A DNA stretch of 64,000 nucleotides from an uncultured Bryobacteraceae bacterium (GTDB lineage Bacteria > Acidobacteriota > Terriglobia > Bryobacterales > Bryobacteraceae), in contig CALDSU010000008.1 of NCBI GenBank assembly GCA_937924525.1, positions 1-64,000 of the forward strand, written 5' to 3'. How positions within the stretch are numbered: position 1 is the first letter of the stretch; every line of letters begins with the position of its first letter. Both the position numbers and the translations under genes were made by a program. Below, one piece after another: positions 2,670 to 64,000 of this stretch. The notes below the pieces were generated by a model. That model worked only from the letters and a program-made list of their open reading frames with translations. It searched no databases and had not been told where the DNA came from.

Positions 2670-2686
2670 CGGCCGGCGGCGGATGG

Positions 2687-3001: not shown

Positions 3002-3030
3002 GAGCGTGAAAAGTCTAATGCCCATGCTAC

Positions 3031-3036
3031 TATACC
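3031..3036 (+). promoter_or_regulatory. -10 element (TATACC) for the gene at 3041
   Basis: The hexamer TATACC ends 4 nt before the ATG at 3041. A start of transcription about 7 nt downstream would fall on the start codon, giving a leaderless mRNA. No purine-rich ribosome binding site lies in the gap. No good -35 was seen. Confidence 0.45.
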
Positions 3037-3040
3037 GGCG

Positions 3041-3921: not shown

Positions 3922-4016
3922 GCCAAGCCGCCCCCACGAGCACACGCGACGCTGGCGCAGGTCTCCCGCGCGTGCCGGCTGAGGCCGAAACCAGGCGGCG
4001 GCGATGCGCCTCCGGG

Positions 4017-46422: not shown

Positions 46423-46430
46423 TCACGCCT

Positions 46431-47426: not shown

Positions 47427-47469
47427 TTGCTTCGGATGGCGCTGGGCGTGAGCTCGTTTTTGGCTGCCC

Positions 47470-50217
47470 TCAACCCTGAAAGCGGCTCGCCCCTCGGCCG
47501 TTCTCCAAAGGCGCCCGGTAGCCGATCAGGCAGAACTGATCGAGCGCCCAGATCACCGCTGACTCGAGTCCTTCTCCCTTCGTAATCTGGATTTCTCGCT
47601 CCCATGGACTCGTGTAATCGCCAACGCCCACCAGGTGGCTTGCACGCTCGCGCGGAAAACCGCGCCCCAGCGGGTACAGCACCGACGCCTTCGCCTTGTT
47701 GAGATTCCGCTCGGAGGTGTACGTGAAGTTCTCGGTTTTCAGGTTTTCCAACTTTGCCGGAGTCCATGCTCCTGCCGCGTAGTTCACCGCCAGGCTCCAC
47801 CGCGGCTCGTTGACATCCAACGGGAACAGCACCTCGAATTTCGCCTCCGGATAGCTGTTCTTCACGAAGCTCATCACCTCTTCGGTGAAGGCGCTGATCA
47901 AGCCGTGGAGATGCGCGGTCTCTTCGGGGAAGTCACCCGGATCCAGTCCGGTGTGGGTGAATACCGGCATCGGCCTCCCGTGTACGGCTTGAAAGGAAGA
48001 CACAGTGTATGCATCGTAGTAGGGCAACCCCGACTGATCCGGGAAGTACCACCATTGCACCTCGCCGAATTGCAGGTACACTGGCATCGACGCCTCGTCC
48101 ATCAGACCCGCCATCTCCAGGTACACTTGCCTCCAGAATGCGGTGCTTGCCGGACCGAAGTTCGTCTGGAGCGCGGGCGTGTTCAACAGGACAGGCGCCC
48201 CGCTGGGGTACCTTTGCGCGATTCCCGCCTCCTCCGACGGGTCGCCGTCTTGTAGTTCCATGCTAAACGCGGCGGTCGCCTCGATGCCATACCCCTTGAG
48301 CGCCGCCAAATAGCTTCGCGTCCAGTCTCGGGCCGCTCGATTCAAGCGCGGCGCCGCCGCCAGATCCGTTCGCCATGTCGGGTCTGTCCCCCCGTCCAGG
48401 TACCATTTCCCATCGCCCGCGTCAAAACGACCCTCGATCTCTCCCCAGAACGCACCTCCTGCGGTAGCCGGCGAGACGGTGACTGAGATCTGGTTTCCCT
48501 CCGTGCCCAAACGCCGGGACCAGATCGTCAGCCTTGCTCCGGTTAGCTCCGCCCACACTGCGGTGTAACCTGAGTTCAGTTCTAGCTCGAACGCCCGCGC
48601 GACACTCTCCTTCGTGTCCCCGATGAGGTTCAGGTGCGGAATACTGGTCTCCACGCCACCGATCCCGATCCGCAACTCCGTAATCGCGCTGAACTCCGGC
48701 GTCCCGAAAAACTCGACACTCGCTTGCGCATACTGCCCCCCTGCCGCCGCCAACTCGTAAAAGACGAGCGCGCCCACATAATGATTCGCCCGACCCAGAA
48801 AACCCAACGACTTGAGCATCCAGGCGGTCCTTTCCGGCGCGATCGCGAGACAATGGTCCGTGTCCCAGTCGGTGGCTAGCGTGGTCTTCTCGTCTGGCGT
48901 CAGCACCGGTAACTCTTGACTCGGTACTACCACCTCTACGAAGTCGAAGTATAGGTCGCCGGTCCCCCCGCTTTTCCTGACCTCAACCTGATGCTTCCCC
49001 GGACCAAAGGAGCCCACGGGAACCCGCACCAGGACGTCCTCGCCCGCCAGCGCGATATTTCGCGCCACTCGCACCACGCCGTCCACCAGCACCTCCAGCG
49101 GACCGGCCGTCGCCGTGCGCCGCGTTCCGAGAAAAAGGCGATGGGGGGTTATGGCTTCGTACTCAACAAGCGCCGCCGCGCCGGCGCTGCTGGTCCGATG
49201 GATTGCGCCTCCCGAGTAATTGCCAAGTTCCCTGGTCCAGGCGGCCGTGTACGCCACCCTTGCCTCGGTGTCCTCGATGCGTTGCGATCCTGGCCCCGCC
49301 ACTTCGTAAATTAGGCCTTGGCCGCTCACCTGCCAATTCGTCACGCTTACCTGGAACTCCGACCGGACATACGCCCCGCTCTGAATGTCAGCCGCGTAAG
49401 TCCACCGCATCTTGCGCACTTGCGTTGTGGGCACCAGCGTCCCGTATTCGTCCCTGAGGTTTCCGAAATCAAGCGTCACACGCCACTTGGTCGGGGACGT
49501 GCCGCCCCCGAATCGCCGCCATGCCTCCACCCAGTATTCCGTGCGGGCGCCGCTCACATTGCCGTAAACGCCCATCCGATTGCCGTTTGCGCCTGTCGTG
49601 CTGCTCTCGACGGTGCTCGCGTAACCCGTGTAATACAGGGTGATCGACGTGCCGTTCACACTGGCGCGAATTCGGTGGTCCGCCCCATTGATCGCGGTTG
49701 CGAGTTCGTCAACAATATCTGCCAAAGACTCCCCCGCCGCCACTTGATGCGTGTAGTGCTCGGACAGACACGCCAACTCCACGTGGTCTCCTGGAGTCGC
49801 CATGCCTTCCAAAGTCATCACTGCCGTCGCGCAAGTGAACCCTCCCTCAAGGGGAGTTGCGTTTTGCCTGAGTGGGACCCGATAAAATCCTTGCTCCCCG
49901 CTCGCGCTCTCGGTCCACACCCGCAAATAGGGCCATTCCACCGTGGGGTAAAGATCCGAATCGAGCGCGATGCAGTTCGTCCGCTCTTCCTCGTAGGATA
50001 GCTGCAGCCCGCTAAGATCGCCGTCCGGCAGACACCGAAACCACGGGTGCTCGAACGTGTTGTCGCGTGCCCACTCCACCACCGCCCAGTCGAACTGCTG
50101 CCGCCATGCGCCGCTCAGCCGAAAACCGGTCGCCGACGCTTCACTCATCGCCGCGATGGCCGACGGGCGCTCAAAGTAGCACTGAAGATCACGGTCGGGT
50201 CTTAATTTCGTCAGCAC
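47470..50217 (-). CDS. phage tail protein with TIM-barrel-like C-terminal half
   Basis: 915 residues, last gene of the cluster. The first ~430 residues are beta-rich, and a small module occurs twice: DELATAINGADHRIRASVNG...GANGNRMGVYG near 165-225 and ELNSGYTAVWAELTGARL...TEGNQISVTV near 540-585. Residues about 610-900 look like a glycoside-hydrolase-type TIM barrel (YLQFGEVQWWYFPD, AVIWALDQFCLIGYR), similar in idea to the GTA_TIM domain of RcGTA tail proteins. It may bind or cut a cell-surface polysaccharide. GTG start 38 nt after the hub gene. Confidence 0.7.
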   Translation of the reverse strand: MLTKLRPDRDLQCYFERPSAIAAMSEASATGFRLSGAWRQQFDWAVVEWARDNTFEHPWFRCLPDGDLSGLQLSYEEERTNCIALDSDLYPTVEWPYLRVWTESASGEQGFYRVPLRQNATPLEGGFTCATAVMTLEGMATPGDHVELACLSEHYTHQVAAGESLADIVDELATAINGADHRIRASVNGTSITLYYTGYASTVESSTTGANGNRMGVYGNVSGARTEYWVEAWRRFGGGTSPTKWRVTLDFGNLRDEYGTLVPTTQVRKMRWTYAADIQSGAYVRSEFQVSVTNWQVSGQGLIYEVAGPGSQRIEDTEARVAYTAAWTRELGNYSGGAIHRTSSAGAAALVEYEAITPHRLFLGTRRTATAGPLEVLVDGVVRVARNIALAGEDVLVRVPVGSFGPGKHQVEVRKSGGTGDLYFDFVEVVVPSQELPVLTPDEKTTLATDWDTDHCLAIAPERTAWMLKSLGFLGRANHYVGALVFYELAAAGGQYAQASVEFFGTPEFSAITELRIGIGGVETSIPHLNLIGDTKESVARAFELELNSGYTAVWAELTGARLTIWSRRLGTEGNQISVTVSPATAGGAFWGEIEGRFDAGDGKWYLDGGTDPTWRTDLAAAPRLNRAARDWTRSYLAALKGYGIEATAAFSMELQDGDPSEEAGIAQRYPSGAPVLLNTPALQTNFGPASTAFWRQVYLEMAGLMDEASMPVYLQFGEVQWWYFPDQSGLPYYDAYTVSSFQAVHGRPMPVFTHTGLDPGDFPEETAHLHGLISAFTEEVMSFVKNSYPEAKFEVLFPLDVNEPRWSLAVNYAAGAWTPAKLENLKTENFTYTSERNLNKAKASVLYPLGRGFPRERASHLVGVGDYTSPWEREIQITKGEGLESAVIWALDQFCLIGYRAPLENGRGASRFQG

Positions 50218-50254
50218 GTCGTATCCCTACACACCATAAGTACCCGGCTGCGCT

Positions 50255-53200
50255 TTAGACCTGAATCACCACGCTCAGCCCGCCCCCTGGCGTAACGGCG
50301 CCCACCGTAAGCACGTCCAGCGATATCCGGGACTCCTTGCGGATCACTGGCAAATCCCTCCCGCTCAGTGCGCTCGACTCCGCGGCGCCGTTGGGAATCG
50401 TGAGCTGACACCACTCTTGATTGTTCAACCGCAGACGAATGGTTACCCCAGGCCCTTGCGCGCCGGTCGCCGGGCTCAGCACGAACGCTTGGATGAATCC
50501 GATGCTGTAGTCGCGCTCGGCGATAAATGCGGGTATGGCGTCTGCTTGCACCGCCAGAAAGCCATCGATAGTCAGCGAGATCTGACCGCCGGAGAGCGTC
50601 CGCAGGCCCCGGTCAATCGTCTGCGTGAAGCTCACCTCCCTTGCCACGCTATTTCCAATCGCGTTGCTCACATACATCTGCGCACTCGCCACCCGTGCGT
50701 TGGGCAAGGTAATCGCGTGTCGCCAACTGCCTGCGGCCGGACTCCCAAAATAGCCCCGCGGAAACGCTAACGCCGTGGTGCGCCTCCGCAATCGGTAGAT
50801 CGCGCTGCCTGCGCTGTGCCCCGTGGCCGTGCTTCCGTGTAACCCCCTGGTGACTCGCACACTTTCGCCGCCCGGCAGCGTTTCCTCAATTCGAAGGATC
50901 TCGGCATCGATCTGAATCACATCGTCCGAGCTCAGACCTTCCGTCCCCGCCATGTGAATGATTGTGCTCTCCCCGCTTGCCGCGGCGGCGAGACTCCGTG
51001 CCCCCTCGTCCTCGAGTTCGTCCACGTAATAAAGCGTGGTTGTCGCCGATGAGATGTGCCGCGTGTTTTCGAGACTCGCGAAAGAGATTCCCGACAGCTC
51101 TACAACCCCTTGCGGGGACCGAGCGACTGAAACCGCGAAGAAAGGTGCTGGCGGAACGCCGTCGTCGAGCGGTCCGCTTTCGTCGCCCATTCTCCACCGG
51201 GTTACGGGACAAAGCTCCGCGACTGACTCAACATCGTTTGCGTCCGCGGCCCTCCCCGTGATGTGAATCGTCGCGCCCTCTCGGTAGGGAACTTCGAGCT
51301 GCGCCGGACTGCTGCTCACCGCCACGGGCCCCGTCCAGCCGTTCTCCATGATCACCCAGCGCGACGTCTCGTCGGGCATCTCGCTCCACGCTGGCGCGAC
51401 TGTTAACGCCACCGCGCTATTGGCAATGATCCTCCGCTCCTGGCCCGCGCCTTTTCCTCGTGTGATCCGCACGCCGCGCCCTACCTGTTCGCCGGGCGTC
51501 ATTTCGAGATTTCCGTTCCCTACTGTAGCCGGCCCCCAAGACAGTGCCGCTACCTCTGGTTGGACTTCCCACCGCCAATAGAAGTTCGCATGGTGAAAAC
51601 ATCTGTCCGGCGGAGTGACGAGGCTCCCGCCAAAGCCGGTGTCGACGAACTCCTGGGCCACAGCCGCGTTCTCGCGAATCCGGTATAGCTGCTGCGGGTT
51701 GGGGCCGCGATACACATGAAACGTTGCCGCGTCCCCGGGAAAGCTTAACCTCGTCAATTTCACGCTCCAACCCGGCCCGGGTGGCGTTTGTGCCCGGACG
51801 ATGAAAGACAAGTCGCCTTCTTCCCCGGCGGCGTTTACCGCGCTGAGCGCATAATAAAAGACGGTGTCGCCCTCCAGACTGCCGCCCCCAACGGTCTCCG
51901 GCGCCAAACCTACCGCCGGCGGCGCCGGACCGAACGCCGAGGCGGCGTGCGGCGTTTGAAACTCTGCGCGGATGACCGCGTTCACTCCGCCGCCCGGATT
52001 GATCCGCAGCGTTTCCGTAATCCCAAACTCCGGCCATCCGCTTTCGCCGCTCTCCACCCCCGCCAAAGGCCTGGGCACGCGCAGACCTCCGTTGGGAGGA
52101 CGCCGTGGCCCCTCCGATCGCGCATCGATCTCCGCCACGTCCCCGTACCAACTGTCATCATGGATTTGCGCCACCACCCCGACGGTCCGGAAATCGGCGG
52201 CCGGCGCCAGCCTGATGATCCGGAAGGGTTGCCGGTCAAAACCCTCCCGCAAGTATGTCATCGTGATCAGGTCGCCCGGTTGCAGCCCTATCCCGCGGAC
52301 ACTGGTGTCGAACTCCACATAGACGTTGCCTCTCACCGAACGATCCAGGTGGTACTTTAGCGTTCGAGCCGCCTGGCTGAAGTTCGCCACACCCACCGCA
52401 TGCACCGGTCCGGTAATCTCTTGTCCCGTCCGCGCCACGTCTCCGAGATCCACCAGCGACAGGCTGTCTTGTTGGTATTCGTTGAATTCATCCTGGAACT
52501 CGATGGCATACCGATTGGGCGTGTCATTCGTAGGTCTGCTGAACACTCTCACACTCGCCTCGCCATTCGGCCGCCGCAGAATGCCGCCCCGCTGCAAGGT
52601 GCCGTCTCCAAACTCATACGCCGGCCAGCCTCCCAGCACAGGCGTGACCGCGTTACTGCCCGCCCGCGGAGTGGGTTGTTGCTCCGCCACAGTTCCTTCC
52701 ACTGTCACCCGCAACGCGCCCGTGGCGGCGTAGGTCAACATCAGTCTGCCCGTCTGCCGGATGGCCCGCATCACTTCCGCCGCGCTTCGTCTCTTTTGGA
52801 TCACCAGATTGCACTGGAACCTCGGAATCGTGGTCGGGTTCCCGTGCAGATCCTCGGCCCCGATTGGCTCGCCGCAGAACGCCGCCGCCCGATGAAAACT
52901 CGGGAGGTCGATATCCCCCACTCGCCAGCCAGTTCGTCGCAGTACGTCCAGCAGGATCCAGGATGGGTTGTTCGTGAACTGCGTTCCCGAGTAAGCGCCC
53001 TCTCCGTCGAAAGTGTCCAGGCGCATCCCTTTCACCAGCACTCGCACGCGTGGCCACGACCTTCCGTCGCTGATTCGGTTGGGCACCACCAAGGAAATAT
53101 AGGCCATGCTCCCGTAGGGATCGCCTAGCGGCGCTCCCGACATGTCCCGAAAGTTCAGGTTGAAGCCTCCCGTCCGGTGGCCCAGACTCACCACGTTGAA

Positions 53201-54190
53201 CCACCCCGTGCCTGTCATGTTCTTCCCATTCACACCCAACGGGATGTCGATGTCGTTCACCAGCACCTTGACCACGCCTTCCAGAACCCCTTGACCCAGG
53301 AGCACCTCCAGGTATGTGAGGTTCCCGTCGTTGCGTGAGAACACGATGGGAGGCGAATACCAGCACGTGCCATAAATCAGCGGTACCACATCGTTGTACC
53401 GGGCTTCGTTCTCCCGCACGACCGACGTGTGCCAGGTCTTGTCCCCCGCTCCCCTCACCTGCACCGCCGGCGGCACAAACTCAATCCCCCCAAACCTTGC
53501 GGTTGGCCGCGCCGCCGCGTCCACCCGGAACATCCCTCTGGCTTCGCAATCGCTCCGGGTGTACCCGCATGTCGTAAAGGGAGCCCCGCCGCTCGTCAGG
53601 TTCCCATGCCCGCCAGGTTGGTCCGGCGCGTAACCGCACTTGTAGAAAAGCGAATAGGCGCCTTCTCCTCCGCCGTTCACCGCCTCGGCCCGCTCTGCCG
53701 GGTTGCTCGGAAATGTCCACGGACATCGTTTCTGGATGCGCACGCTCGGAACCAGCGTCCGCTGCAGGTTCATCCGGTTGATCGCGCTCAGCCGAAACGT
53801 TGCCTCCGTGATTTCTTCAGGGGCGTTGAACACCCCCCGAAACAGCACCACCCGGTCGGTGGCTGGCGTGTCGCTCACCAGGTCGTAGAACAGCAGCGAC
53901 ACCGTCACCTCTCGGCCTTTCCAACCCACGCTCCTCTCTCGCTGCGAAAAGTAACCGTCTGCGTTCGCCAGCGTCACCGACACGCGGGGAATCGCATCCA
54001 CCCCTTGGTCCGCGGCCGTCGAAATCTCAAAGCGGTTGTGCCCGATCACGCGGGCGTCGAATGCGTGGCCTTCTACCCGGACCGCATGCGTGCTCCAGCG
54101 TTCCCATACGCCGCCGGGCAGCGCCGTCTCAAATAGCAGCAGGGGAACGTGTGTGACGTCCCCTTCCTTGTGCGATAGTATTGATTCCAT
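50255..54190 (-). CDS. tail tip/hub protein, gpL-like cysteine module fused to gpJ-like hub
   Basis: 1311 residues. The first ~280 resemble lambda gpL/DUF2163-like proteins, and four cysteines (156, 185, 208, 215; RCPWTF, KCGYAP, TTCGYT, SDCEAR) follow the spacing of the gpL 4Fe-4S domain. The rest resembles a tail tip hub (RRSAAEVMRAIRQTGRLMLTY, PGDLITMTY), then fibronectin-like modules (VFYYALSAVNAAGEEGD) and a C-terminal receptor-binding-like part. It joins the tail tube to the host-contact parts. It starts 3 nt after the upstream gene's stop. Confidence 0.78.
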   Translation of the reverse strand: MESILSHKEGDVTHVPLLLFETALPGGVWERWSTHAVRVEGHAFDARVIGHNRFEISTAADQGVDAIPRVSVTLANADGYFSQRERSVGWKGREVTVSLLFYDLVSDTPATDRVVLFRGVFNAPEEITEATFRLSAINRMNLQRTLVPSVRIQKRCPWTFPSNPAERAEAVNGGGEGAYSLFYKCGYAPDQPGGHGNLTSGGAPFTTCGYTRSDCEARGMFRVDAAARPTARFGGIEFVPPAVQVRGAGDKTWHTSVVRENEARYNDVVPLIYGTCWYSPPIVFSRNDGNLTYLEVLLGQGVLEGVVKVLVNDIDIPLGVNGKNMTGTGWFNVVSLGHRTGGFNLNFRDMSGAPLGDPYGSMAYISLVVPNRISDGRSWPRVRVLVKGMRLDTFDGEGAYSGTQFTNNPSWILLDVLRRTGWRVGDIDLPSFHRAAAFCGEPIGAEDLHGNPTTIPRFQCNLVIQKRRSAAEVMRAIRQTGRLMLTYAATGALRVTVEGTVAEQQPTPRAGSNAVTPVLGGWPAYEFGDGTLQRGGILRRPNGEASVRVFSRPTNDTPNRYAIEFQDEFNEYQQDSLSLVDLGDVARTGQEITGPVHAVGVANFSQAARTLKYHLDRSVRGNVYVEFDTSVRGIGLQPGDLITMTYLREGFDRQPFRIIRLAPAADFRTVGVVAQIHDDSWYGDVAEIDARSEGPRRPPNGGLRVPRPLAGVESGESGWPEFGITETLRINPGGGVNAVIRAEFQTPHAASAFGPAPPAVGLAPETVGGGSLEGDTVFYYALSAVNAAGEEGDLSFIVRAQTPPGPGWSVKLTRLSFPGDAATFHVYRGPNPQQLYRIRENAAVAQEFVDTGFGGSLVTPPDRCFHHANFYWRWEVQPEVAALSWGPATVGNGNLEMTPGEQVGRGVRITRGKGAGQERRIIANSAVALTVAPAWSEMPDETSRWVIMENGWTGPVAVSSSPAQLEVPYREGATIHITGRAADANDVESVAELCPVTRWRMGDESGPLDDGVPPAPFFAVSVARSPQGVVELSGISFASLENTRHISSATTTLYYVDELEDEGARSLAAAASGESTIIHMAGTEGLSSDDVIQIDAEILRIEETLPGGESVRVTRGLHGSTATGHSAGSAIYRLRRRTTALAFPRGYFGSPAAGSWRHAITLPNARVASAQMYVSNAIGNSVAREVSFTQTIDRGLRTLSGGQISLTIDGFLAVQADAIPAFIAERDYSIGFIQAFVLSPATGAQGPGVTIRLRLNNQEWCQLTIPNGAAESSALSGRDLPVIRKESRISLDVLTVGAVTPGGGLSVVIQV

Positions 54191-54193
54191 ACG

Positions 54194-54994
54194 CTACGGA
54201 TGCCACGGACTCTCCAGGTCCAGAGTCACATCGTGGTCGTCTGGTCCTTGGCAGACGATCTGTAGTTCGTCCCGCGCAAATCGGCACTGCGAGTACAGTC
54301 CCCCGTGGCTGAAAGTGCGCTTGTATGTGCTTGGATTGGGCTGCGCTTCCACCTGGGCCCCGAATACTTCGACCGTCTTCCCTGCCTCCAGTTCGCAGGC
54401 GAATACCGAAGCCTCGCCCGACACTGTCAGTTGCGTGCGGAATACCGCTCGCTTCCAAGCGGTGTCCACGCGTAGGTCGGTGGAATCCTCCGCCCCGTCG
54501 GCGCTTCGCACCAGCCGAATCCACCCTTCCGTAGCAGAGCGCACGTACACGGAAAACGTGCAACTGTAGTATCCCGGCAGTGCGACCGATTGGCTGAACT
54601 TCGCCGGCGCGACCCCGCTGTTCGTCAACCTCCACGCCCCCTGGCCCCCTTGCGGATCTTCTCCCCCAGGCTCCACGTGCCCCCAGGGCGGCCGCTCCCA
54701 GCTTGCTTTGCTGAAATCTTCGCTCCACTTGAGGAGGTTATCGGTCGGATCCGCAAAGGTGAATTCCAGCAGACGCCCCCCGCAGGATAGGAAGAAATTC
54801 TTGATATGCTCAGTCTCCTGATCGGAAAGCGCGCGGTAGACGCAGCGCCACGCAACCATCGGCGACCGGTCATCGGCCGCTTTGATCCGCCGCCCGTCTG
54901 CGGACTCCGTCGCGATCGTCCTCCACCGTGACGTCCTCCGCAACGGGAACTGCACCGTCGCGCCGCTGGCCAACTGCGGAAAGTACCGGGCCAT
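54194..54994 (-). CDS. DUF2460-like distal tail protein with jelly-roll domain
   Basis: 266 residues. N-terminus MARYFPQLASGATVQFPLRR matches the next gene upstream (MARFPLLKTGAVAQYPLEER), so the two are duplicates. After about residue 85 a carbohydrate-binding-like jelly roll is inserted (LLKWSEDFSKASW, YYSCTFSVYVRSATEGWIRL), common in tail proteins. The C-terminus returns to the tail fold. It probably sits in the distal tail ring. 2 nt from its neighbour. Confidence 0.72.
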   Translation of the reverse strand: MARYFPQLASGATVQFPLRRTSRWRTIATESADGRRIKAADDRSPMVAWRCVYRALSDQETEHIKNFFLSCGGRLLEFTFADPTDNLLKWSEDFSKASWERPPWGHVEPGGEDPQGGQGAWRLTNSGVAPAKFSQSVALPGYYSCTFSVYVRSATEGWIRLVRSADGAEDSTDLRVDTAWKRAVFRTQLTVSGEASVFACELEAGKTVEVFGAQVEAQPNPSTYKRTFSHGGLYSQCRFARDELQIVCQGPDDHDVTLDLESPWHP

Positions 54995-54996
54995 CC

Positions 54997-55356
54997 CTAG
55001 CTCCGGTTCTGCCGCACGATCAGCACCCCGGCGCCGCGGCTCTCACCGGAGAATTCCCACGTGCACTCCGGTTGGTCGAAGCTGCAGTTGGGATACTCCT
55101 GCTGATCCAGTGGATCAACGAAGGTGAAGTTTCCAAACTCCCCTTTGTGCTCCATGTAGAACTCCCCCAAAGTACGCGCCTCGCTAGGCTCCAGCATTTC
55201 CAGACGGATGATCCAACGCTTGAGCGCCGTGCCGGCGCCCCGGTACGCCTGTCTGGTTCCGTCCACAAACCAGAGCAGCTCGTTTCGAAACGCCAGACGC
55301 TCCTCCAGCGGGTACTGCGCCACCGCGCCAGTCTTCAGCAAGGGAAAGCGAGCCAT
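54997..55356 (-). CDS. DUF2460-like small distal tail protein
   Basis: 119 residues, the short paralogue of the gene at 54194. Shared pattern: MARFPLLKTGAVAQYPLEE, then a Trp and a Leu-rich helix (LEMLEPSEARTLGEFYMEHK), and GNFTFVDPLDQ. It ends where its partner has the jelly-roll insertion. Proteins of this type form the distal tail ring under the hub. It lies 6 nt after the tape-measure candidate. Confidence 0.72.
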   Translation of the reverse strand: MARFPLLKTGAVAQYPLEERLAFRNELLWFVDGTRQAYRGAGTALKRWIIRLEMLEPSEARTLGEFYMEHKGEFGNFTFVDPLDQQEYPNCSFDQPECTWEFSGESRGAGVLIVRQNRS

Positions 55357-55362
55357 CTCCGC

Positions 55363-56043: not shown

Positions 56044-56359
56044 GCTCCTCCTCCTTCATCCGCTCCCGCTCCAGGATCAGAAACGCCTCAACGTCTCTCG
56101 CCCGCAGGCTCTCAGCTTCCGCCGGGGCCCATCGCGACCACACCGCGTAACGATCCAGCCACTCCATGCTCTGCGGCGTGATGAGTGACTTCGGGCAACG
56201 CGCCGTCGCCACGCCCGGTCCGGCCCACACCGGTGTCTCGCTTTCCGCGGGACACGGCCTCAGCCAGGCGCACCTCCGCGTCTCCGCCAGGCCGCTGCTC
56301 CGGCAGGTGTCGCACTTCCACGCGGCCTGGTCCCGGCGAAAGAAATGGAAGGCGACCAT
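56027..56359 (-). CDS. Cys-rich tail assembly chaperone-like protein
   Basis: 110 residues. The N-terminus has cysteines that could bind zinc (KCDTCRSS, RRCAWLRPC). The C-terminus is very charged (LILERERMKEEERERV). It lies between major tail protein and tape measure, the place of gpG/gpT-like chaperones. Its ATG overlaps the previous stop (TGATG, 56361-56359) and its end overlaps the tape-measure start. Confidence 0.6.
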   Translation of the reverse strand: MVAFHFFRRDQAAWKCDTCRSSGLAETRRCAWLRPCPAESETPVWAGPGVATARCPKSLITPQSMEWLDRYAVWSRWAPAEAESLRARDVEAFLILERERMKEEERERVT

Positions 56360-56724
56360 CAGTTTTTTCTCTCTTCTTCCGTGACTCCGTACTCGCGCGC
56401 CACCGCCCGTACCGCTTCCGCTACCAGTTCCTCCGGTCCGCTCTCCACCAACGATTCCGGTGTGGCTGGTGCCCCGTCAATCTCGAGCCCGCGCACCTCT
56501 CGCAGCCCGTGGCGCAGATACAGCCGCTCTATCTCGCCGTTGAGCAGCCGGCTCTCCATCTGGTCCGCTGCTTCCTTGCTTGCCGCCAGGAACTCGCCCC
56601 GCACCGCGAGCTCGCGGACTTGCCGCGCCAGCTCCAGCCTTCTTCCGAACGACGCCCGCGCCACGACGAACGTGACCTCCGGCCGCTTCTCCGAGCGGAC
56701 CTCCGCTACGCTCTCGTATTTCAT
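56359..56724 (-). CDS. tail assembly chaperone-like protein
   Basis: 121 residues, helical, MKYESVAEVRSEKRPEVTFV. No database family is recognised. The location directly after the major tail protein and the coupled overlap with the next gene fit the first half of a tail chaperone pair. No slippery heptamer is obvious at its end, so a stop-start overlap rather than a frameshift would join the two. Confidence 0.6.
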   Translation of the reverse strand: MKYESVAEVRSEKRPEVTFVVARASFGRRLELARQVRELAVRGEFLAASKEAADQMESRLLNGEIERLYLRHGLREVRGLEIDGAPATPESLVESGPEELVAEAVRAVAREYGVTEEERKN

Positions 56725-56732
56725 ACTGTTCT

Positions 56733-57902
56733 TTAGCCGAACGCGATCACTACTTCATCCTCGCCCTCGCCGAAGGCCCGGCCATCGCGAAAGCGCCACT
56801 TCAGCCGCCGATCCTCGTCGTCGAACTGCGGCGTCTCCGGCACCACCTGCTTTGCGTAAAGTCCGCACAACTGCCCCGTCTTCTGGCCCAACTGAAACAT
56901 CACCGCGATCGGCGACTGCTGCCGCGCCGCCTGATAGAGGCTGATCGTCTGCGCTTCATCGCGCTCATAGATCTCAAACCCGACGCGCACCTCCCTCCGC
57001 CCCGGAACCACCGCCGCCGCAAGTGTGCGTCCGAATTCGGTCGCCCGCACCTCCACATCGTTGTGCAGTTCGAAAGTCCCTGCCGTGACCGTGGCGAATC
57101 GGTGCGGCCCCCCTCCCAGCCACACCTGCCCCAGATGCCCCGGCACGATCGCGTGGTCAAAGTCGCCAGGGGGGGGCTCCGCGGGAAACGTCCCCAGTTC
57201 CCCGGCGCCGCTCTGAAAACTCGCGCTGTCGATAATATCTTGCGCCGGCCCCGAGAAAACGAACTCGTGGTAGTCCCCGTTCAGTCCCACCCGCAGCCGA
57301 TTTACCGCCGCCCCGGCCAGGATCCGCTGGACAGCGGTGCTCGGTGTCCAGTAGTCGTAGATACTCACGCTCGGAAGATCGGTCGCCGGCCAGAATGTGA
57401 CGGTCGGCGGCAAAGCTGCGCCCACCACCGGACTGACGGAAAGGGGGGCGTTCAGCGTCACGGTCGTGTTATTCACTAACGTCTCCACAAAACGAATCTC
57501 ACCCCCGTGCGCCACCCCCTGACTGACGCTCAACCCGTGCGGAGCGGCAAACACCAGCACGCTCTCCGTCGTGCCGCCCGCCAACACCCCCCCGCCGAAA
57601 ACCACCGGCGCCCCTCCTAGGGCCGCACTAAATAAACCACTGTACGCGGGCGGCGTCGGCGGCCTCCACGAAGTGAGATACGTCCGCAGCTCATATTCGC
57701 TGTTGCGCCGTCCTCCTGCCGGCATACCCAGAAAAGTCCGGCTGCCCGTCTTGTCTCGGCGCAGCCTTAAGTCCACTTGCTGGCGTGCCGTCAGCTTGAC
57801 TGCCGGAATCCGGTTGTCGCTGGTGATTGCGGGCACTGTCCCGTACGCGCTCTCCCCTTTCACATACAGCCGGTTTGCATAAGATGAAATATAGCTTCCC
57901 AT
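56733..57902 (-). CDS. major tail (tube) protein
   Basis: 389 residues, beta-rich. Starts MGSYISSYANRLYVKGESAYGTV, a typical beginning of tail tube proteins, and has tube-like features such as SVSIYDYWTPSTAVQRILAG and EVRVGFEIYERDEAQTISLY. Its length is above average, partly because of an inserted beta domain around 110-165. It would form the tail tube around the short tape measure. Confidence 0.75.
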   Translation of the reverse strand: MGSYISSYANRLYVKGESAYGTVPAITSDNRIPAVKLTARQQVDLRLRRDKTGSRTFLGMPAGGRRNSEYELRTYLTSWRPPTPPAYSGLFSAALGGAPVVFGGGVLAGGTTESVLVFAAPHGLSVSQGVAHGGEIRFVETLVNNTTVTLNAPLSVSPVVGAALPPTVTFWPATDLPSVSIYDYWTPSTAVQRILAGAAVNRLRVGLNGDYHEFVFSGPAQDIIDSASFQSGAGELGTFPAEPPPGDFDHAIVPGHLGQVWLGGGPHRFATVTAGTFELHNDVEVRATEFGRTLAAAVVPGRREVRVGFEIYERDEAQTISLYQAARQQSPIAVMFQLGQKTGQLCGLYAKQVVPETPQFDDEDRRLKWRFRDGRAFGEGEDEVVIAFG

Positions 57903-57920
57903 TTCTCCGCCTTCGCCGCG

Positions 57921-58415
57921 TCACACACTCACATCGATCGTCATCCGGACTGTGGCGGTGTGCACATAACGTTTCCCGCCTGGCTTCAGCGCCGGAAAGT
58001 CTACCTCGTACCCTCCGCTGTAAAACAGCCCTTCGCCCCAGTCGCCCCGCTGTTGGTCCAGTGTCCGCAAGACTGCCGCCGTATAAAGATGCAGCAGCCC
58101 TTCCGCTCGCGCCGCGTGGTCATGCGTCACCCGCACATCGATGCACATGCGCGCCTTGCCGGAAAACTGGCGGAACTTCTCCGTTAGTGCGTTGCTCAAA
58201 GATTCACACCGCACGCTCGCCGACGGGTACCTTCCCTCTCCCCGCCGTTCCAGGAAGTCGGTCCCGCTATTCATGGCCACCACCTCGCAATTCGCCAGCT
58301 CCGTCCGCGCCACGCCTTCCGTTTCCGCAACGGCGTCCAGGTTGTCCCCGAGTCCGCCAGGCCCGGCCAGCAGACCCACCACCCGCTCGATTGCCCGCTT
58401 ACTGATCACCGTCAC
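57921..58415 (-). CDS. tail terminator/completion-like protein
   Basis: 164 residues. Recognised by position (just before the tube gene) and by features: N-terminal helix ISKRAIERVVGLLAG, a conserved acidic CEVVAMNSGTDFLERRGEG and beta strands FSGKARMCIDVRVTHD. The start is GTG. It starts 2 nt after the connector gene's stop. Confidence 0.6.
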   Translation of the reverse strand: MTVISKRAIERVVGLLAGPGGLGDNLDAVAETEGVARTELANCEVVAMNSGTDFLERRGEGRYPSASVRCESLSNALTEKFRQFSGKARMCIDVRVTHDHAARAEGLLHLYTAAVLRTLDQQRGDWGEGLFYSGGYEVDFPALKPGGKRYVHTATVRMTIDVSV

Positions 58416-58417
58416 GG

Positions 58418-59167
58418 CTACCCCCGCTGCATCACGCCCCGCACCTGGTGATACTGCTGTGGCGCTTGCCCTTCGCCGGGCTCACGCGTCCCGCTCACCA
58501 GCGTCGTGACGGTGTAGCTCTCTGTCGCCGCGATCGGTGAGTTGTTCTGGAGGGCCAGCCTCGACGGGTCGGTCCCCGCGTACAGGTTCCAACCCGCCGC
58601 CCTCGGTGGCGGCGGACCGGCCGTCACCAGGAGGCCGTCGCCCCCCTCGACTTCTACCGCCGTTTCTGGGCCTGGCGCCCCCTCTTCGCCATCCGCGTTT
58701 GTCCACGCCGACCGCAAATAATAGACCCCGCCAGCCAGTCCCCCCGCCACGCGCGTCGTCCCGACCGCCCGTGCCTGGGCAATCGGGTTGGTCACCGTCC
58801 CGATACCGATTTCGCCGAGCAATCGCGCCGCCCATTTGGCCAGCTCGCGGTGCTCTCTCCATTTCCCTTGGTAGCGGTCGTTCACCTGGCGGTTGCATGC
58901 CTCGCGATACACCAGCTCCAGTGACCGGAACACCAGCCAAAGCCGCAGCGCCGGCGTCACCACGACCCCCGCCAGCGGATCACGGCCCGCGGCCGGAGGC
59001 GTCGCATGCCGAAGCGTCGCCGTCAGTTCCAGCGCGATCTCATCCCGCGCCAGTAGGACCTTCTTCCCCAAATCGATGCCTTCCGCCGCCGCCGTCTCTA
59101 GCAGACTGCCGTCGTGGGCCGCCAGCTCCTCCGGACCCACTCCCGGGACATCCATTAGCAGCGCCAT
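58418..59167 (-). CDS. head-tail connector-like protein with fibronectin-type module
   Basis: 249 residues. The first 155 are helical and resemble head-tail adaptors (RDEIALELTATLRHA, WKWREHRELA-type region with RYQGKWREHRELAKWAARLL). The last ~90 form an Ig/FN3-like unit (VYYLRSAWTNADGEEGAPGPE, GWNLYAGTDPSRLALQNNS), which resembles a module in the hub protein. It may decorate the neck. The exact role is inferred from position. Confidence 0.6.
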   Translation of the reverse strand: MALLMDVPGVGPEELAAHDGSLLETAAAEGIDLGKKVLLARDEIALELTATLRHATPPAAGRDPLAGVVVTPALRLWLVFRSLELVYREACNRQVNDRYQGKWREHRELAKWAARLLGEIGIGTVTNPIAQARAVGTTRVAGGLAGGVYYLRSAWTNADGEEGAPGPETAVEVEGGDGLLVTAGPPPPRAAGWNLYAGTDPSRLALQNNSPIAATESYTVTTLVSGTREPGEGQAPQQYHQVRGVMQRG

Positions 59168-59174
59168 GGATTCG

Positions 59175-59498
59175 CTAGCTCCCGCGCTCCCCGCCTCGCT
59201 TGAGCGCCCGGAAGTCCTGCTCGCTCACCACCCGTACTTGTAGTCGCGAGGCCGCGTCCCGCTCTTCCGCCTCGCGCCGCGCCGCGGCTTTTTCGCTCCG
59301 GTGCGCCGCGCTTTCTTTCGCGTCCGCGAGCCGCGCCCGCCCTTCGATCACCATCTTTGCGGCGACCTCCGCGCTCACCTCCGTCGCGACGCCCGCGCGG
59401 CCTCCGTCTGCGGTCTCCAGGCTGATGACCACCGGATAGTCCTCCCGAATCGACTCCCGGACCTTCCGCATCGCCTCGTAGTATTGCTTGAGATCCAT
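59175..59498 (-). CDS. small phage protein of unknown function (head region)
   Basis: 107 residues. MDLKQYYEAMRKVRESI, then a beta segment (PVVISLETADGGRAGVATEV) and a strongly charged helix (RSEKAAARREAEERDAASRL). It lies between coat and connector. It may be a minor head or neck protein. No family is recognised. Confidence 0.6.
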   Translation of the reverse strand: MDLKQYYEAMRKVRESIREDYPVVISLETADGGRAGVATEVSAEVAAKMVIEGRARLADAKESAAHRSEKAAARREAEERDAASRLQVRVVSEQDFRALKRGGERGS

Positions 59499-59574
59499 TT
59501 CTCACCTCCTCTAATCCGGCGTTGGGGCCGCCGGATTCTCCTCCGCCGGCCCTTGCCGCCCCTCACGCCTCGTG

Positions 59575-60486
59575 CTAGCTCCGCACCTGCACGCCAAACG
59601 CGTTCCGAATCACCGCGCAACCGTACAGCACGTCCACCGTGAACTGTTGCGCCAGGGTGTTCGGCTGGTAGCTCATGATCACGCGCATGCCGAAGTTGCC
59701 CAGCTCCGCATACTCGGCGATGGCCCCCGTCCCGGGCAGCGGTTGCGGTAGCCGCCGGATCACCAGCCCCATCGCATTGCGGGCGAACGCGATGTTGTTG
59801 GTGGTCACCGGCGCGCTGCCTGTCTTCGCCACAAACTGCGACCGGAACACGTAAAAGTCTTTGATCTTCCCCACGGAACCGTCGATCAGCGCCCGCAGCC
59901 CCGCATCCCCGGCCGTCTGAAACTCGCTGAACCGCGGGATCTGCCGCAGGGCCGAATACGCCGCCGAGTCCACCACCAGATACTTCGGCTCGCTCGCCGG
60001 CAGTTTCGCGTTGAACAACGCCGTCTCCGCGCTGTCCACCACCGCTTCGGTCAGCGCTGCCCCCGCCGTGCCCACCGGCGCGTTCGCCGTGAAACCGGCG
60101 TACAGATTCAACAGGTCGGTCTCGATCTTCTGTGCAATCGCGATCACGGCAGGCTGCATGTAAATCTTCAGCAAGTCCGGCACCGCAAGCACCTTGGTGA
60201 CGTCCGGTATCTGGAACGTCGCCTCCACGTGCGAATTCAGCACGATCTGCGACGTGCTCAGGCTCGGGTTCTGCGTGGTGACCGTGCCCCCCTCCGCGAT
60301 GTTATTGGCCATCAGGGTCGGCGGAATCACCACGTTTACGGTGTCCCCCGCCTGCGCCAAGGTCGGCTCGTAGTCGCGATTGACGAGGTTCCCCATCACC
60401 AGGTTCCCCACCAAGGCGGGCAGCGCGTCGGCCGCCACTAACTTCACAATCGCGTTCGCTACGTTCGCTGACGTAATAGCTGGCAT
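59575..60486 (-). CDS. major capsid (coat) protein, P22-like
   Basis: 303 residues. Begins MPAITSANVANAIVKLVAAD and continues GDTVNVVIPPTLMANNIAEG, consistent with the P22 coat family (HK97 fold). A separate scaffold gene lies just upstream, and no head protease is present, both as in P22-like systems. The C-terminus ends GCAVIRNAFGVQVRS. Gene product would form the shell that encloses packaged DNA. Confidence 0.8.
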   Translation of the reverse strand: MPAITSANVANAIVKLVAADALPALVGNLVMGNLVNRDYEPTLAQAGDTVNVVIPPTLMANNIAEGGTVTTQNPSLSTSQIVLNSHVEATFQIPDVTKVLAVPDLLKIYMQPAVIAIAQKIETDLLNLYAGFTANAPVGTAGAALTEAVVDSAETALFNAKLPASEPKYLVVDSAAYSALRQIPRFSEFQTAGDAGLRALIDGSVGKIKDFYVFRSQFVAKTGSAPVTTNNIAFARNAMGLVIRRLPQPLPGTGAIAEYAELGNFGMRVIMSYQPNTLAQQFTVDVLYGCAVIRNAFGVQVRS

Positions 60487-60534
60487 TCCGTTCTCCTCTG
60501 TTCTGCCTTCCCGCGGCTCCTGCGAGCCGCCTGT

Positions 60535-61116
60535 CTATTGCCCGCGGAGCGTCTGCGAGGCTACCCGCAGAATCTCCAGCCGGGCCTTCTCCATGTCCTC
60601 CCGACTCATGCCCGGACGGATCTTCTCCAGGTCAATGCTCCCCCCGCTCGCTGGCGCCCGGTTCCCCGTCCCCGTTCCCGATCCCCCCGGAATCCGCGCC
60701 GGCAGAAACTCGGGATTGGCGCGCAAAAAGTCCGCCACAAAGTCTCGCAACGGCACTTCGCCCGTCTCCGCCCGCGCCAGCAGCTTGCCATCTTCCCCTT
60801 TCACTACGGCGTCCTGAATCACCTTGTACGCCAGGTCCACCTTTTGCACGCCCGCTCGCTGCAACTCCGCGCGAATCCCTGCGCTCCGCTCGGCCTGCTC
60901 CGCCTGCGTCCGCGCCCGCTCGTTCTCCGCAATCAGCTCGTTGACCCGCTTCTCCAGCGCTTCCCGCCTCCGCCGCTCCTCGAGTAGCTCCGCTTTGTGT
61001 GCCGGCTCCGCCTTGCTTTGCTCTCGCTGCCGGTATTCATCGATCACTCTCCGCACCACCGCCTCGAGATCGCCGCTCGCCGCGTCGCCCGGCCGCCCCT
61101 GAGTGTCCTCGTCCAT
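60535..61116 (-). CDS. phage scaffolding protein
   Basis: 193 residues. The central part is a long coiled coil (ELLEERRRREALEKRVNELI, ENERARTQAEQAERSAGIRA) with a glycine/serine-rich linker before a basic-acidic C-terminus (REDMEKARLEILRVASQTLRG). It precedes the coat gene by about 50 nt. A typical scaffold that guides capsid assembly and is then lost. Confidence 0.8.
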   Translation of the reverse strand: MDEDTQGRPGDAASGDLEAVVRRVIDEYRQREQSKAEPAHKAELLEERRRREALEKRVNELIAENERARTQAEQAERSAGIRAELQRAGVQKVDLAYKVIQDAVVKGEDGKLLARAETGEVPLRDFVADFLRANPEFLPARIPGGSGTGTGNRAPASGGSIDLEKIRPGMSREDMEKARLEILRVASQTLRGQ

Positions 61117-61140
61117 GCCTTCCCCTCCTTCCTTTGCTTC

Positions 61141-62532
61141 TCAATTACCGTCCTGCCCCGCATCGATCTCCCTCGCGATCCGGTCCTTGATCTCCTGCCG
61201 GACGTCGCACAGATACTTGAACGCCAGCTTCTTGAACACCTGCTTGCGCAGGGTCTCCGACGGAATCCCCAACGCCAGCATCTTGCGCGCGTCCTCCAAT
61301 TCCCCGCCAAAATCGCCAATGTCGAATTCGTCCAGGCCTGAAACGTCGATCGCGAGCCCGTCTTCCCGCACCGCCTCAATCGACCGCAGCACCTGCTTCA
61401 TCGTTTCTTTCACCGCGTCGCCGTAGGCCCGCAGCACCTCCTGCGTGATCCCGAAGTCCCTCAGTTTGCTCAGGCCGGATTGCGCCAGGCTGCTGGCGCT
61501 GGTGCCCATCGCGTGCGACATCAGGTAACATACCCGGTACAATTCGTCTTTCAGCCGCACCAAGTTGTCCGCCGCGATCTGATACACCGTCCCCGCCGGC
61601 TCCGTCCACCCAAACCGGTCCTCCGGTCCGAGCTGAATGTAGTAGCTCTCCCCCATCACCTGCGCGAACGGTTTCTCCGAGTACACCACCGGCATCGCGA
61701 ACAACCCCATCGTCAGCGCCCACGCCAGGGCGTTGGACTTGTTGAAGTGCTCCAACTGCAACAGCGCGGCCTTGTTCATCAGCCACAGCCCCTCCGAGAT
61801 CCGCAGTTCGAACACCGGCACTCGCGCCAGTCGTGCCAGCCCGTGCCTCCCCTCTGCCACCAGCCGCACCGCCGCCGGCCCCCCGTGGTCCACTGCTGCT
61901 TCGTACACGCCGTACCGCTCGCGGTCGTAGTGCACCCACTGCCGGTGACGCCGCCAGCCGCCCACCTCCGCGCTGTCCTTCCTCAGCGTCTCGGTCCGGA
62001 ACACCACCCACTGGAGATTCCCATCGCTGTCCCGGTCCCAGTTGATCAGGTCCTCCGGCGTGTACGCCGTTAAGTACGCCCGTGACCGCCCGCTCTCGTC
62101 TTCTTCCGCCCGGGTCCGCGCCTCCCCGGAGAGGTTCGGAAACTCCACCACCGTGTAAGCTGTCCCGTGCACCAGGGCCTGCACCAGTTGTGCGCGAAAG
62201 AATTCCGCGCAGTCTGTCCCCCTCAGATCGCAATCCTCCAGAAACTGCGCGTAGAACGCTCGTGCCGCTTCGTTCTTCCCCTCGCACAGCACCACCGGCT
62301 CCCGCCGCATCAGCGTGGCGGCGTACCAGTCGATGATCGAACCAATGTAGTTCTCGTAGAACACGCGGTTCAGCCGCTCGTAGTAGACTTCCGCCGGTTC
62401 CTTGCTGCGCCGGATCAGATACTCGGCCGCGTGCTCGCGAAACCGCTCGCCGCCCGCGTATAAGTCCCCGTATTTCCGCCACATCGCCTTCCTCGCGACG
62501 TATTCGGGATGTTCTCGTTCAATCCACTCCAT
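61141..62532 (-). CDS. portal protein, DUF4055-like
   Basis: 463 residues. Begins MEWIEREHPEYVARKAMWRK and has YLIRRSKEPAEVYYERLNRV and NYIGSIIDWYAATLMRR, the front half of the DUF4055-like portal family; SSLAQSGLSKLRDFGITQEV and the helix near the end form the crown. It makes the dodecameric gate at one vertex. The ATG at 62532 is preferred; an upstream ATG (62583) has a Gly-rich leader that does not fit. Confidence 0.8.
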   Translation of the reverse strand: MEWIEREHPEYVARKAMWRKYGDLYAGGERFREHAAEYLIRRSKEPAEVYYERLNRVFYENYIGSIIDWYAATLMRREPVVLCEGKNEAARAFYAQFLEDCDLRGTDCAEFFRAQLVQALVHGTAYTVVEFPNLSGEARTRAEEDESGRSRAYLTAYTPEDLINWDRDSDGNLQWVVFRTETLRKDSAEVGGWRRHRQWVHYDRERYGVYEAAVDHGGPAAVRLVAEGRHGLARLARVPVFELRISEGLWLMNKAALLQLEHFNKSNALAWALTMGLFAMPVVYSEKPFAQVMGESYYIQLGPEDRFGWTEPAGTVYQIAADNLVRLKDELYRVCYLMSHAMGTSASSLAQSGLSKLRDFGITQEVLRAYGDAVKETMKQVLRSIEAVREDGLAIDVSGLDEFDIGDFGGELEDARKMLALGIPSETLRKQVFKKLAFKYLCDVRQEIKDRIAREIDAGQDGN

Positions 62533-62604
62533 GCCTGGTGCCCCCCCTTTTCCGGCAAAGCCTTGGCGCCTTCTTCCGCGCACGCCGGTCGCCCCCTTCT
62601 CGCG

Positions 62605-63912
62605 CTACAGCCAGAACAGAGGGTCGCTCCGCTCGCCGATCCCCGCTCGGTTCACGGATTCCTGCCACACTAAGTAACCAAGCGCGTCGCTCAGATGCGT
62701 GCGGCTCCGGTCCCGCCCCTTATCGATCTCTACGGTCCCCGCCACGTACTGGACCTGCTCGAGGTCTTTGATGAGCTCCCTGCACCGGCGGTCAATGATC
62801 AACGACACTCGTCCCGACGCCGTCTTCAGCCTCGCGTTCAGCACATTTACTCGGTCCCGCACCGCCGGATTCGCCCGCGGCACCCGGTACTCCAGCCTCA
62901 CCCCGCGCTCTGCGAAACAATCGGCTATCATCTCGTAGTCTGAGTTGCCGGTCGTCTGCCGCCGCGCCCCGGATGCGTCGCCGTACACCACCATGCCGCC
63001 GGCGTGCCCCCCGTACCGGTCGAGAAAGCAGCGGCAGGCATCGGCTGTCGTGGCGCTCTTCAGTACAATCTCGTCCAGCACGCGCACGCATTCCTCCACG
63101 ATCTGCGCTACCACCGAACACATGGGATCCACATTGAAGTCCAGCGCCCACAGCAGTGGCCTTCTTTCGTCAACCGTGAGATCCTTGACGTGTTCGTCCC
63201 GCTGGAAAGCGTAGTACACCAGCCCTCCCGAAGTGCTCAGATACTCCCCGAGCACCTCCTGCTGGAAGAACAGCGGATCGTAGCTTGCCTTGAGACGTTC
63301 GTAAAAGTCCGGCACGCGATCCAGCAGGTAGCGGTTTTCGTAAGGCTTCGCCACCGTCACCTGGTAGCCGGGCGTCGCCTCCCCAACGAAGCGCCGGTAC
63401 ACCCAGTCGAAACCCTTTGGGGTCCATACCCCGAACCCGCACAGCCGTCTCGCCTTGGGATCCCGCAGCCGCCCCTCCAGCCGCAGCCATGCCTCTTCGG
63501 GCGCGTAGGTGAGTTCGTCCAGACCGAACCACGCCAGGTTCGTGCCTCTCAAACGCTCGAAATCGTCCACCGGTCGGAACAGGATGCGCGACCCGCAATC
63601 CCGCAGCACCAGCGTGTTCTCCGCCTTATTCAGCTCGTAGGGAATTCCGTCTTGGTTCAGAATCTCCAGCAGCGTCGCCTGCGTCGCGTCCCTGAGCATC
63701 GGAAAGGTCGGCGCCCCCAGGAATCCCAGCCGTCCCGCGTTGACATACCCCAGCCGGATCGCCTCGTGACACAACGCCAGGCTCTTCCCCGAACCAATTG
63801 GACCCGAATATCCCTTAAATCGCGCCGCAGACCGGTGAAACTCCCTCTGCGAAGGCAAGGGCCTATACGTTATGCCCCTTCTTCGGGTCCGTCGTCCGGT
63901 GGATCTACCCAT
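62605..63912 (-). CDS. terminase large subunit
   Basis: 435 residues. The ATPase domain has Walker A GPIGSGKS (37-44) and Walker B WFGLDEL (Asp132, Glu133). The RNase H-like nuclease has ALDFNVDP (Asp258), VYGDASG (Asp312) and a late Asp in HLSDALGYLVW. All catalytic residues are present, so it may be active. It packages DNA into the head; whether at specific sites or head-full is not readable. Overlaps the preceding gene by 43 nt. Confidence 0.9.
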   Translation of the reverse strand: MGRSTGRRTRRRGITYRPLPSQREFHRSAARFKGYSGPIGSGKSLALCHEAIRLGYVNAGRLGFLGAPTFPMLRDATQATLLEILNQDGIPYELNKAENTLVLRDCGSRILFRPVDDFERLRGTNLAWFGLDELTYAPEEAWLRLEGRLRDPKARRLCGFGVWTPKGFDWVYRRFVGEATPGYQVTVAKPYENRYLLDRVPDFYERLKASYDPLFFQQEVLGEYLSTSGGLVYYAFQRDEHVKDLTVDERRPLLWALDFNVDPMCSVVAQIVEECVRVLDEIVLKSATTADACRCFLDRYGGHAGGMVVYGDASGARRQTTGNSDYEMIADCFAERGVRLEYRVPRANPAVRDRVNVLNARLKTASGRVSLIIDRRCRELIKDLEQVQYVAGTVEIDKGRDRSRTHLSDALGYLVWQESVNRAGIGERSDPLFWL

Positions 63913-64000
63913 GTCACCGTGATCTCCTTGGGGGTGTCCTCTTGCTCCTCCAACTCTCTCCGCAATTGCACCAGCCGAATATAATCGGCCACGGTTGCTT
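63870..64000 (-). CDS. partial gene, likely terminase small subunit (3' end)
   Basis: The minus strand is open from the edge to TAA at 63872-63870, giving the last ~43 residues: TVADYIRLVQLRRELEEQED followed by an acidic tail ending DDGPEEGA. It overlaps the terminase large gene, which is the usual place of the small subunit. The 5' part lies outside the window, so identity rests on position. Confidence 0.5.
   Translation of the reverse strand, partial: ATVADYIRLVQLRRELEEQEDTPKEITVTWVDPPDDGPEEGA

Follow-up and report, generated by a model that had tools for sequence, protein, structure and literature searches.

What purpose does a complete set of phage head and tail genes serve in a bacterial chromosome, when no integrase, repressor, replication or lysis gene lies beside it? 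This question is raised by a 16-gene head-tail cluster of an uncultured Bryobacteraceae bacterium. It lies at the end of a stretch of 64,000 nucleotides, here referred to as the window, which comprises bases 1-64000 of contig C8 (598 kb) in a genome of 5.5 Mb (99% complete). The cluster extends from window position 47470 to C8 64388, with all genes on the minus strand and all frames intact. The initial annotation of the window had described a complete head-tail cluster without lifestyle genes, and its coordinates proved correct; it had also considered the cluster domesticated, which is supported by the synteny among relatives, the host-like flanks, the descent and the purifying selection described below. 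Very probably, the cluster is domesticated and has descended vertically in the Bryobacterales as a host trait. It is best read as encoding a particle that resembles a gene transfer agent (GTA), with a probability of roughly 60%; we infer this function because the key residues of the large terminase are invariant outside one genus, the putative small terminase is modelled as a bare hairpin, and descent is vertical.

Structural genes of the cluster

The genes are listed from the terminase end in window coordinates, together with the family matches or other grounds on which they were named.

63870..64000, continuing beyond the window to C8 64388, minus strand: small terminase (TerS)-like open reading frame (ORF); start codon uncertain, role from position
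62605..63912, minus strand: large terminase TerL (ATPase and nuclease); phrog_2 3e-36, PF03237 4e-7
61141..62583, minus strand: portal; phrog_145 3e-45
60535..61116, minus strand: scaffolding protein; phrog_206 4e-7
59575..60486, minus strand: major coat protein of P22 type, 303 amino acids (aa); PF11651 4e-17, phrog_283
59175..59498, minus strand: p107, after the coat; weak phrog_2616 match, 0.003
58418..59167, minus strand: p249, head-tail connector region; role from position, which it also occupies in sister prophages
57921..58415, minus strand: p164, in the tail terminator/completion position; role by position
56733..57902, minus strand: major tail tube protein of T5/P74-26 type; phrog_290 3e-7
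56359..56724, minus strand: p121, in a tail assembly chaperone position; role by position
56027..56359, minus strand: p110, in a chaperone position; 1-base overlap with p121, Cys-rich N-terminus
55363..56043, minus strand: short tape measure protein, 226 aa; position and conserved C-terminus
54997..55356, minus strand: DUF2460 distal tail protein 1 (d119); PF09343 1.3e-4, below the cut-off
54194..54994, minus strand: DUF2460 distal tail protein 2 (d266); PF09343 8.5e-9
50255..54190, minus strand: J-like central tail/hub protein, 1311 aa; PF13550 2e-6, phrog_31 3e-27
47470..50217, minus strand: TIM-barrel/non-contractile-sheath-like protein, variable last gene; PF23845 8e-18, phrog_165 5e-9

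In TerL, the Walker A motif, the Walker B motif (D132 E133) and the aspartates 258, 312, 325 and 409 are invariant in 21 of 21 aligned sequences; the choice of catalytic aspartates among these residues is a candidate assignment according to our reading. For the TerS-like ORF, a conserved C-terminal part of ~60 aa was recognised by pattern in 34 of the 81 loci that contain the TerL start (many of these loci are cut close upstream), and 33 of these were aligned. Its model is a two-helix helical hairpin of moderate confidence (pLDDT 70, pTM 0.38), in which no helix-turn-helix was seen, and the sequence has no Pfam match. Judged from this model, the protein appears to be without a DNA-binding domain.

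The AlphaFold model (AF2) of the tube protein has a pLDDT of 87, and its best Foldseek matches (ranks 1-5) are the tail proteins of T5, DT57C and P74-26 (E 4e-15 to 2e-13; query TM 0.58-0.61), therefore indicating a siphovirus-type tail. The tape measure is 153-233 aa long across 20 clusters (own included, that of relative G202 missing; start codons partly uncertain). No match to p249 was obtained in family or PDB sequence searches.

Distribution and synteny

Portal matches were found in 202 of the 257 Bryobacterales genomes, i.e., in 125 of 163 high-quality genomes and in 74 of 84 genera, with identities of 55-68% among the matches listed. A single match is present in 182 of these 202 genomes, and two or three in the other 20, some of which are weak or pieces of one gene. 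TerL matches occur in 193 of the 257 genomes, some belonging to other phages. A draw of 399 genomes from the class contained 88 with the coat: 84 of the same family (own included), one from another family of the order, and three from other families of the class (one weak). A draw of 396 genomes from the phylum, with few members of this family, yielded two strong (own included) and four weak portal matches. On these order, class and phylum counts, the cluster is a clade trait of the order that is rarely found more widely.

For a comparison of the full locus, 20 relatives were picked for their long contigs, giving 21 clusters with the window's own. Gene order and spacing from TerL through portal, scaffold, coat, p107, p249, p164, tube, p121, p110, tape measure, d119 and d266 to J are kept in 20 of 20 relatives; single hits were missing for p107 in G189 and for the tape measure in G202, the latter being found later. 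As order, spacing and conservation hold in all 20, chance is ruled out. The TIM gene is placed after J in 12 relatives, is inverted in one (G143), and was not found there in seven. Coat, portal and scaffold are all present in the 21 clusters and in genus g8, and the coat of the 20 relatives is 75-83% identical to that of the window, compared with 77-89% for RpoB in 24 full-length rows. Loss of the cluster was considered for G145 but is not demonstrated, as TerL there runs into the contig end.

Descent with the host and selection

A cluster tree (seven cluster proteins, FastTree) was compared with an rpoB tree for 28 of 30 taxa; G148 (contaminant rpoB) and G156 (short rpoB) were dropped, and G003, G197 and G020 were kept with partial rpoB. 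The trees have 13 of 25 splits in common, against a mean of 0.29 and a maximum of 3 under label shuffles, and single cluster genes have 7-11 splits in common with rpoB. The Mantel r between cluster and rpoB is 0.775, with 0 of 2000 permutations as high, and the GC content at third codon positions (GC3) of the cluster tracks that of the host (r 0.71, n=28). The cluster is inherited largely with its host and is not freshly inserted. The G148 assembly contains a second rpoB of foreign appearance (L155, on C287), probably a contaminant.

The ratio of nonsynonymous to synonymous substitution rates (dN/dS), a check that had been proposed with the initial annotation, is 0.02-0.45 in pairs with unsaturated dS and lowest in the coat, apart from one ill-defined d119 pair at 0.92; it was calculated on stop-to-stop frames, which biases the values of short genes, and dS was saturated in many of the wider comparisons. 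The cluster genes are under purifying selection. Between the clusters of G201 and G208 (C2), dS is 0.13-0.19 in TerL to coat and 0.43-0.56 in p107 to p121 and in J, and this unevenness along the cluster suggests homologous recombination inside it.

Flanking regions and chromosomal position

Flank genes named here without a family search are predicted ORFs judged by eye. On the inner side, the cluster borders on the following host gene.

46281..47426, plus strand: moaA, host boundary outside the cluster; family match

Next to moaA lies nadA, followed by host-like ORFs for ~30 kb, back to about 15 kb, with no phage lifestyle gene among those judged by eye. On the terminase side, a sodium:solute symporter (Pfam match; C8 64739-66631) is followed by a PIG-L deacetylase, nuoB and malQ, all named by eye, and no phage-like or lifestyle gene was seen by eye among the ORFs of the 43 kb past the window edge (to C8 107000). 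There is no tRNA in the window, and a comparison of 46801-47600 with 64201-65200 gave no direct repeat longer than 10 bp that might represent phage attachment (att) sites. A search for a shared promoter motif upstream of the cluster gave GC-rich words only. The initial annotation had kept a plain prophage with its other half outside the window as the simplest alternative, and had proposed to extend the contig past the terminase in search of integrase, lysis genes and att sites. None of these was seen in the stretches covered, and the plain prophage is rejected on the 43 kb of ORFs together with the relatives.

In the relatives, 130 of 139 selected flank proteins were scanned for families (the nine left out include the inverted TIM gene of G143). 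Beyond the cluster, the flanks have no gene family in common except host-like ones, and there is no integrase or lysis gene among the families listed (top 25 of 71 PHROG and top 25 of 183 Pfam families); the replicative helicases found resemble host DnaB. Tyrosine recombinases are present in all 21 genomes. Among the matches listed, no PF00589 integrase is less than 40 kb away from the cluster on the same contig, and the nearest tyrosine recombinases are about 42 kb away in G097 and 65-70 kb away in G143. The exception is G202, where J is directly followed by a 195-aa, integrase-like N-terminal fragment that lacks the catalytic part (L064:196-783); this is perhaps the trace of an old or unrelated insertion.

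The idea that the site beside moaA might be conserved was not borne out: moaA/nadA adjoin the cluster in 0 of 20 relatives, and the nearest case, in G139, is a partial moaA match ~16 kb downstream. At the J end, 10 of the 33 clusters in which this end was available, from 9 genera, are adjoined by a Wzt-type ABC transporter gene (with one gene between in G082), usually accompanied by a PepP-type peptidase, and it also follows the cluster in four further g8 genomes. Given these 10 of 33 clusters, the ABC transporter neighbourhood looks like the ancestral site and the moaA site of the window like a derived one.

Sister prophages and apparent exchange of the coat gene

Three genomes hold a second, phage-type set of these genes (G020 C156, G126 C144 and G208 C1). 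These sister prophages have the same structural order where it was read, plus inserted genes, and they carry replication-type genes, namely, DNA polymerase sliding clamp, ParB and exonuclease, as well as a methyltransferase. Their coats are 52-80% and their portals about 27-37% identical to those of the window. The tape measures of the two sets that reach that far are 999 and 1145 aa long. Tail length follows the tape measure at ~1.5 angstrom per residue; by this rule, the predicted tail would be roughly 23-35 nm long for the cluster versus some 150-170 nm for the sister prophages. A search of IMG/VR with the sister-type portal gave 12 loci on contigs of up to 54.7 and 66.6 kb. As living phages, the sisters would provide a control for the changes that came with domestication, i.e., the short tape measure and the disappearance of the replication genes.

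The portal, tube and J trees fully support a split between cluster and phage copies; in the TerL tree, the support for it is 0.785. In the coat tree, three of the four second coats nest among the cluster coats beside the lineage of their own host (G126 with G126, 99/96; G020 with G020/G015, 98/98; one G208 coat with its genus, 87/92); the fourth, the other coat of G208, stands apart. Because of this nesting, coat genes appear to pass either from the host cluster to resident phages or the other way, and the same may apply to the IMG/VR contigs L213 and L222.

The prophage region of G208 C1 contains two coat genes on opposite strands, L186 (847037-847906, minus) and L187 (864014-864919, plus); one of the two, shortened to 289 aa, groups with the coat of the host cluster.

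The GTA-like reading and its alternatives

If the cluster encodes a GTA-like particle, its genes would be expressed from the chromosome under some host signal, scaffold and coat would build a procapsid on the portal, and the TerL motor with the small TerS would fill it with host DNA by the headful mechanism. Delivery of this DNA to kin would fall to a very short tube with the DUF2460/J hub, and lysis would be supplied by genes elsewhere in the host. We infer each of these steps, from particle production and the packaging of host over own DNA to lysis with the help of genes elsewhere and transfer. As expected of a GTA, the particle genes lie in the host chromosome without adjoining phage lifestyle genes, bar the G202 fragment, and they are inherited vertically under purifying selection, with discordant splits and coat exchange. 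The packaging motor gives a mixed picture, being intact in all 21 aligned TerL sequences and present in 0 of 8 g8 genomes.

Several observations weigh against the GTA-like reading. A portal match is missing from 38 of the 163 high-quality Bryobacterales genomes, and 12 of the 25 cluster-tree splits are absent from the rpoB tree, which may reflect exchange or tree error. A single clade for all cluster coats was rejected at p 0.022, in a test that was devised after the first coat tree had hinted at the result and that used a simple model. The position of the cluster varies, e.g., G201 and G202 belong to one genus and differ in their neighbours, and no lysis, competence or regulatory gene linked to the cluster was found. 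All 8 genomes of genus g8 contain the portal and none of them a TerL homologue, by a search that found TerL in the other four genomes given. In the six g8 genomes with sequence upstream of the portal, a ribB gene (by eye) sits directly upstream of it (6/6), leaving no room for TerL. No g8 genome yields a match to p107, and nothing between coat and p249 in G046 would fit as p107; in its gene models, G046 lacks TerS in addition to TerL and p107. Otherwise, g8 keeps the cluster order as far as its contigs reach. Between G049 and G052, portal, coat and tube have dN/dS values of 0.032, 0.018 and 0.034, respectively. As g8 keeps these low values without TerL, its head and tail are selected without a motor of their own, which argues for a role beyond DNA packaging. 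Outside g8, a few genomes have a portal and no TerL match, and these are mostly incomplete.

Short PF03237 frames occur in all eight g8 genomes, and also in G143 and, several of them, in G230. Those of g8 were rejected as the TerL of the cluster, the four that were read being short ATPase ORFs far from it. In three of these four cases, the orphan TerL-like ATPase ORF (phrog_7579) is followed by a second ORF (phrog_27743); the split pairs lie among host genes (L332:4988-6408, L333:5288-6804 and L334:5103-6682; G047 and G046), may be either mobile or domesticated, and might supply packaging in trans. Directly beside the split pair of G046, L333 contains a repeat array (about 779-5222) whose spurious ORFs are CRISPR-repeat-like.

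A domesticated particle might also have a job that needs no packaged DNA, e.g., as a headed tailocin-like weapon, or through a coat that poisons the capsids of related phages by co-assembly. This is possible, with a modest yet appreciable probability: it would accommodate the motorless g8, which keeps portal, scaffold, coat and tail at low dN/dS (in G046 even without TerS and p107), a coat about as conserved as RpoB, and the grouping of three of four resident-phage second coats with the clusters of their own host lineage. However, TerL is kept under selection outside g8 with its motifs invariant, the tailocins known to us have no head genes, and the split TerL-like pairs of g8 could act in trans. 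It is rather unlikely that the essential job of the particle is independent of its own packaging motor altogether, which would be a third fate, neither tailocin nor GTA; such a job may be the delivery or storage of other cargo, loading by the orphan split terminase, or an action of the coat on the capsids of related phages.

That the cluster is a phage satellite, for which a helper phage supplies excision, replication or lysis, is improbable. The lack of adjoining lifestyle genes, the related prophages in three genomes and the exchanged coats would agree with a helper, but satellites known to us carry an integrase, regulators and a few hijacking genes and not a whole head and tail, and the cluster is usually present in single copy, has chromosomal neighbours in common across 9 genera and follows the host tree for the most part. 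Still less credible, indeed very improbable, is an ordinary prophage, or one in decay, with the rest of its genes beyond the window or already lost; in the form of a single recent insertion, this is excluded. Its phage origin, the integrase-like fragment of G202 and its publication as a provirus group (PMC11924767, in the text available) speak for a prophage. Against this, no phage genes were seen on either side here or in the 20 relatives, bar that fragment, and a decaying prophage would not retain 14 open frames at low dN/dS across many genera.

Comparison with known systems

Few GTAs are known. RcGTA, the GTA of Rhodobacter capsulatus and other alphaproteobacteria, contains a DUF2460 protein; at the Pfam level, DUF2460 is common to RcGTA and the cluster. 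Both have a domesticated head-tail layout in the host chromosome. As far as described in the accessible text on RcGTA (PMC7296036), both also have a distal tail, a hub and a short tube that is filled by the tape measure. Unlike RcGTA, the cluster has a P22-type coat with a scaffold and a T5/P74-26-type tube, and no protease was found. PDB sequence searches with the tube, coat, TerL and p249 profiles and with J alone, run without a positive control, gave no RcGTA chain at E 0.1 or better. On these sequence comparisons, RcGTA is apparently an analogue of the cluster and not a relative, and the separate origin that had been suggested from the outset apparently holds.

Tailocins, such as the R/F-pyocins, monocin and diffocin, are likewise phage-derived and host-owned with conserved particle genes, whereas the cluster keeps a complete head and, outside g8, the packaging genes. 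It differs from a functional prophage in that no integrase, repressor, replication or lysis genes or att sites adjoin it, the G202 fragment excepted. If the GTA-like reading is true, an order-wide and apparently ancient cluster of soil bacteria makes GTA evolution testable far from the alphaproteobacteria, and g8 raises the question of what a capsid is for without a packaging motor.

Published records and virus databases

The element is already in print as a member of the Bryobacterales provirus group (i), which is described as 'newly reported' in the available part of Demina et al. 2025 (PMC11924767). One member of this group, IMGVR_UViG_639633060_000001, is our locus L092, which is cluster-type and has matches to 15 of the 16 genes, the TerS-like ORF being the exception; another, KBS 96, is our locus L296. 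Paludibaculum fermentans P105 and Solibacter usitatus Ellin6076, cultured like KBS 96, are also named in that paper. The accessible main text of that paper calls the members proviruses and does not contain the words 'domesticated', 'gene transfer', 'defective' or 'cryptic'. Elsewhere, in sources available in part, one prophage each is given for Bryobacter aggregatus and Solibacter usitatus (PMC5900883), and a peat virome study assigns about 25% of its assembled reads to contigs that match 16S or GTA-type sequences (PMC6172770); the presence of GTAs in soils of this kind would agree with that share, though the element is not named. The available text of a GTA review (PMC11841831) does not contain 'Acidobacteri' and calls the prevalence of GTAs unknown. 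No published GTA claim for Acidobacteria, Acidobacteriota or Bryobacter was recognised in the partly accessible literature searched, and searches on the 'non-contractile tail sheath' gave unrelated papers only. This literature, which covers few subscription papers, gave no mention of the domesticated nature of the element, of the genus without a motor or of the exchange of coats.

In IMG/VR, at least 594 stretches encode a relative of the coat. The best 80 of these records (L075-L154) are host-owned cluster fragments, none on a contig longer than 19.8 kb, and 75 of the 80 contain the portal at an identity of at least 54%; such records matter for soil virus surveys. This coat was also found, at 81% identity, in L253 (DYJN01000047.1, titled Arcobacter sp.) and L260 (NZ_CAJCHS010000017.1, Nevskia soli), both of which are probably mislabelled or misbinned Bryobacterales.

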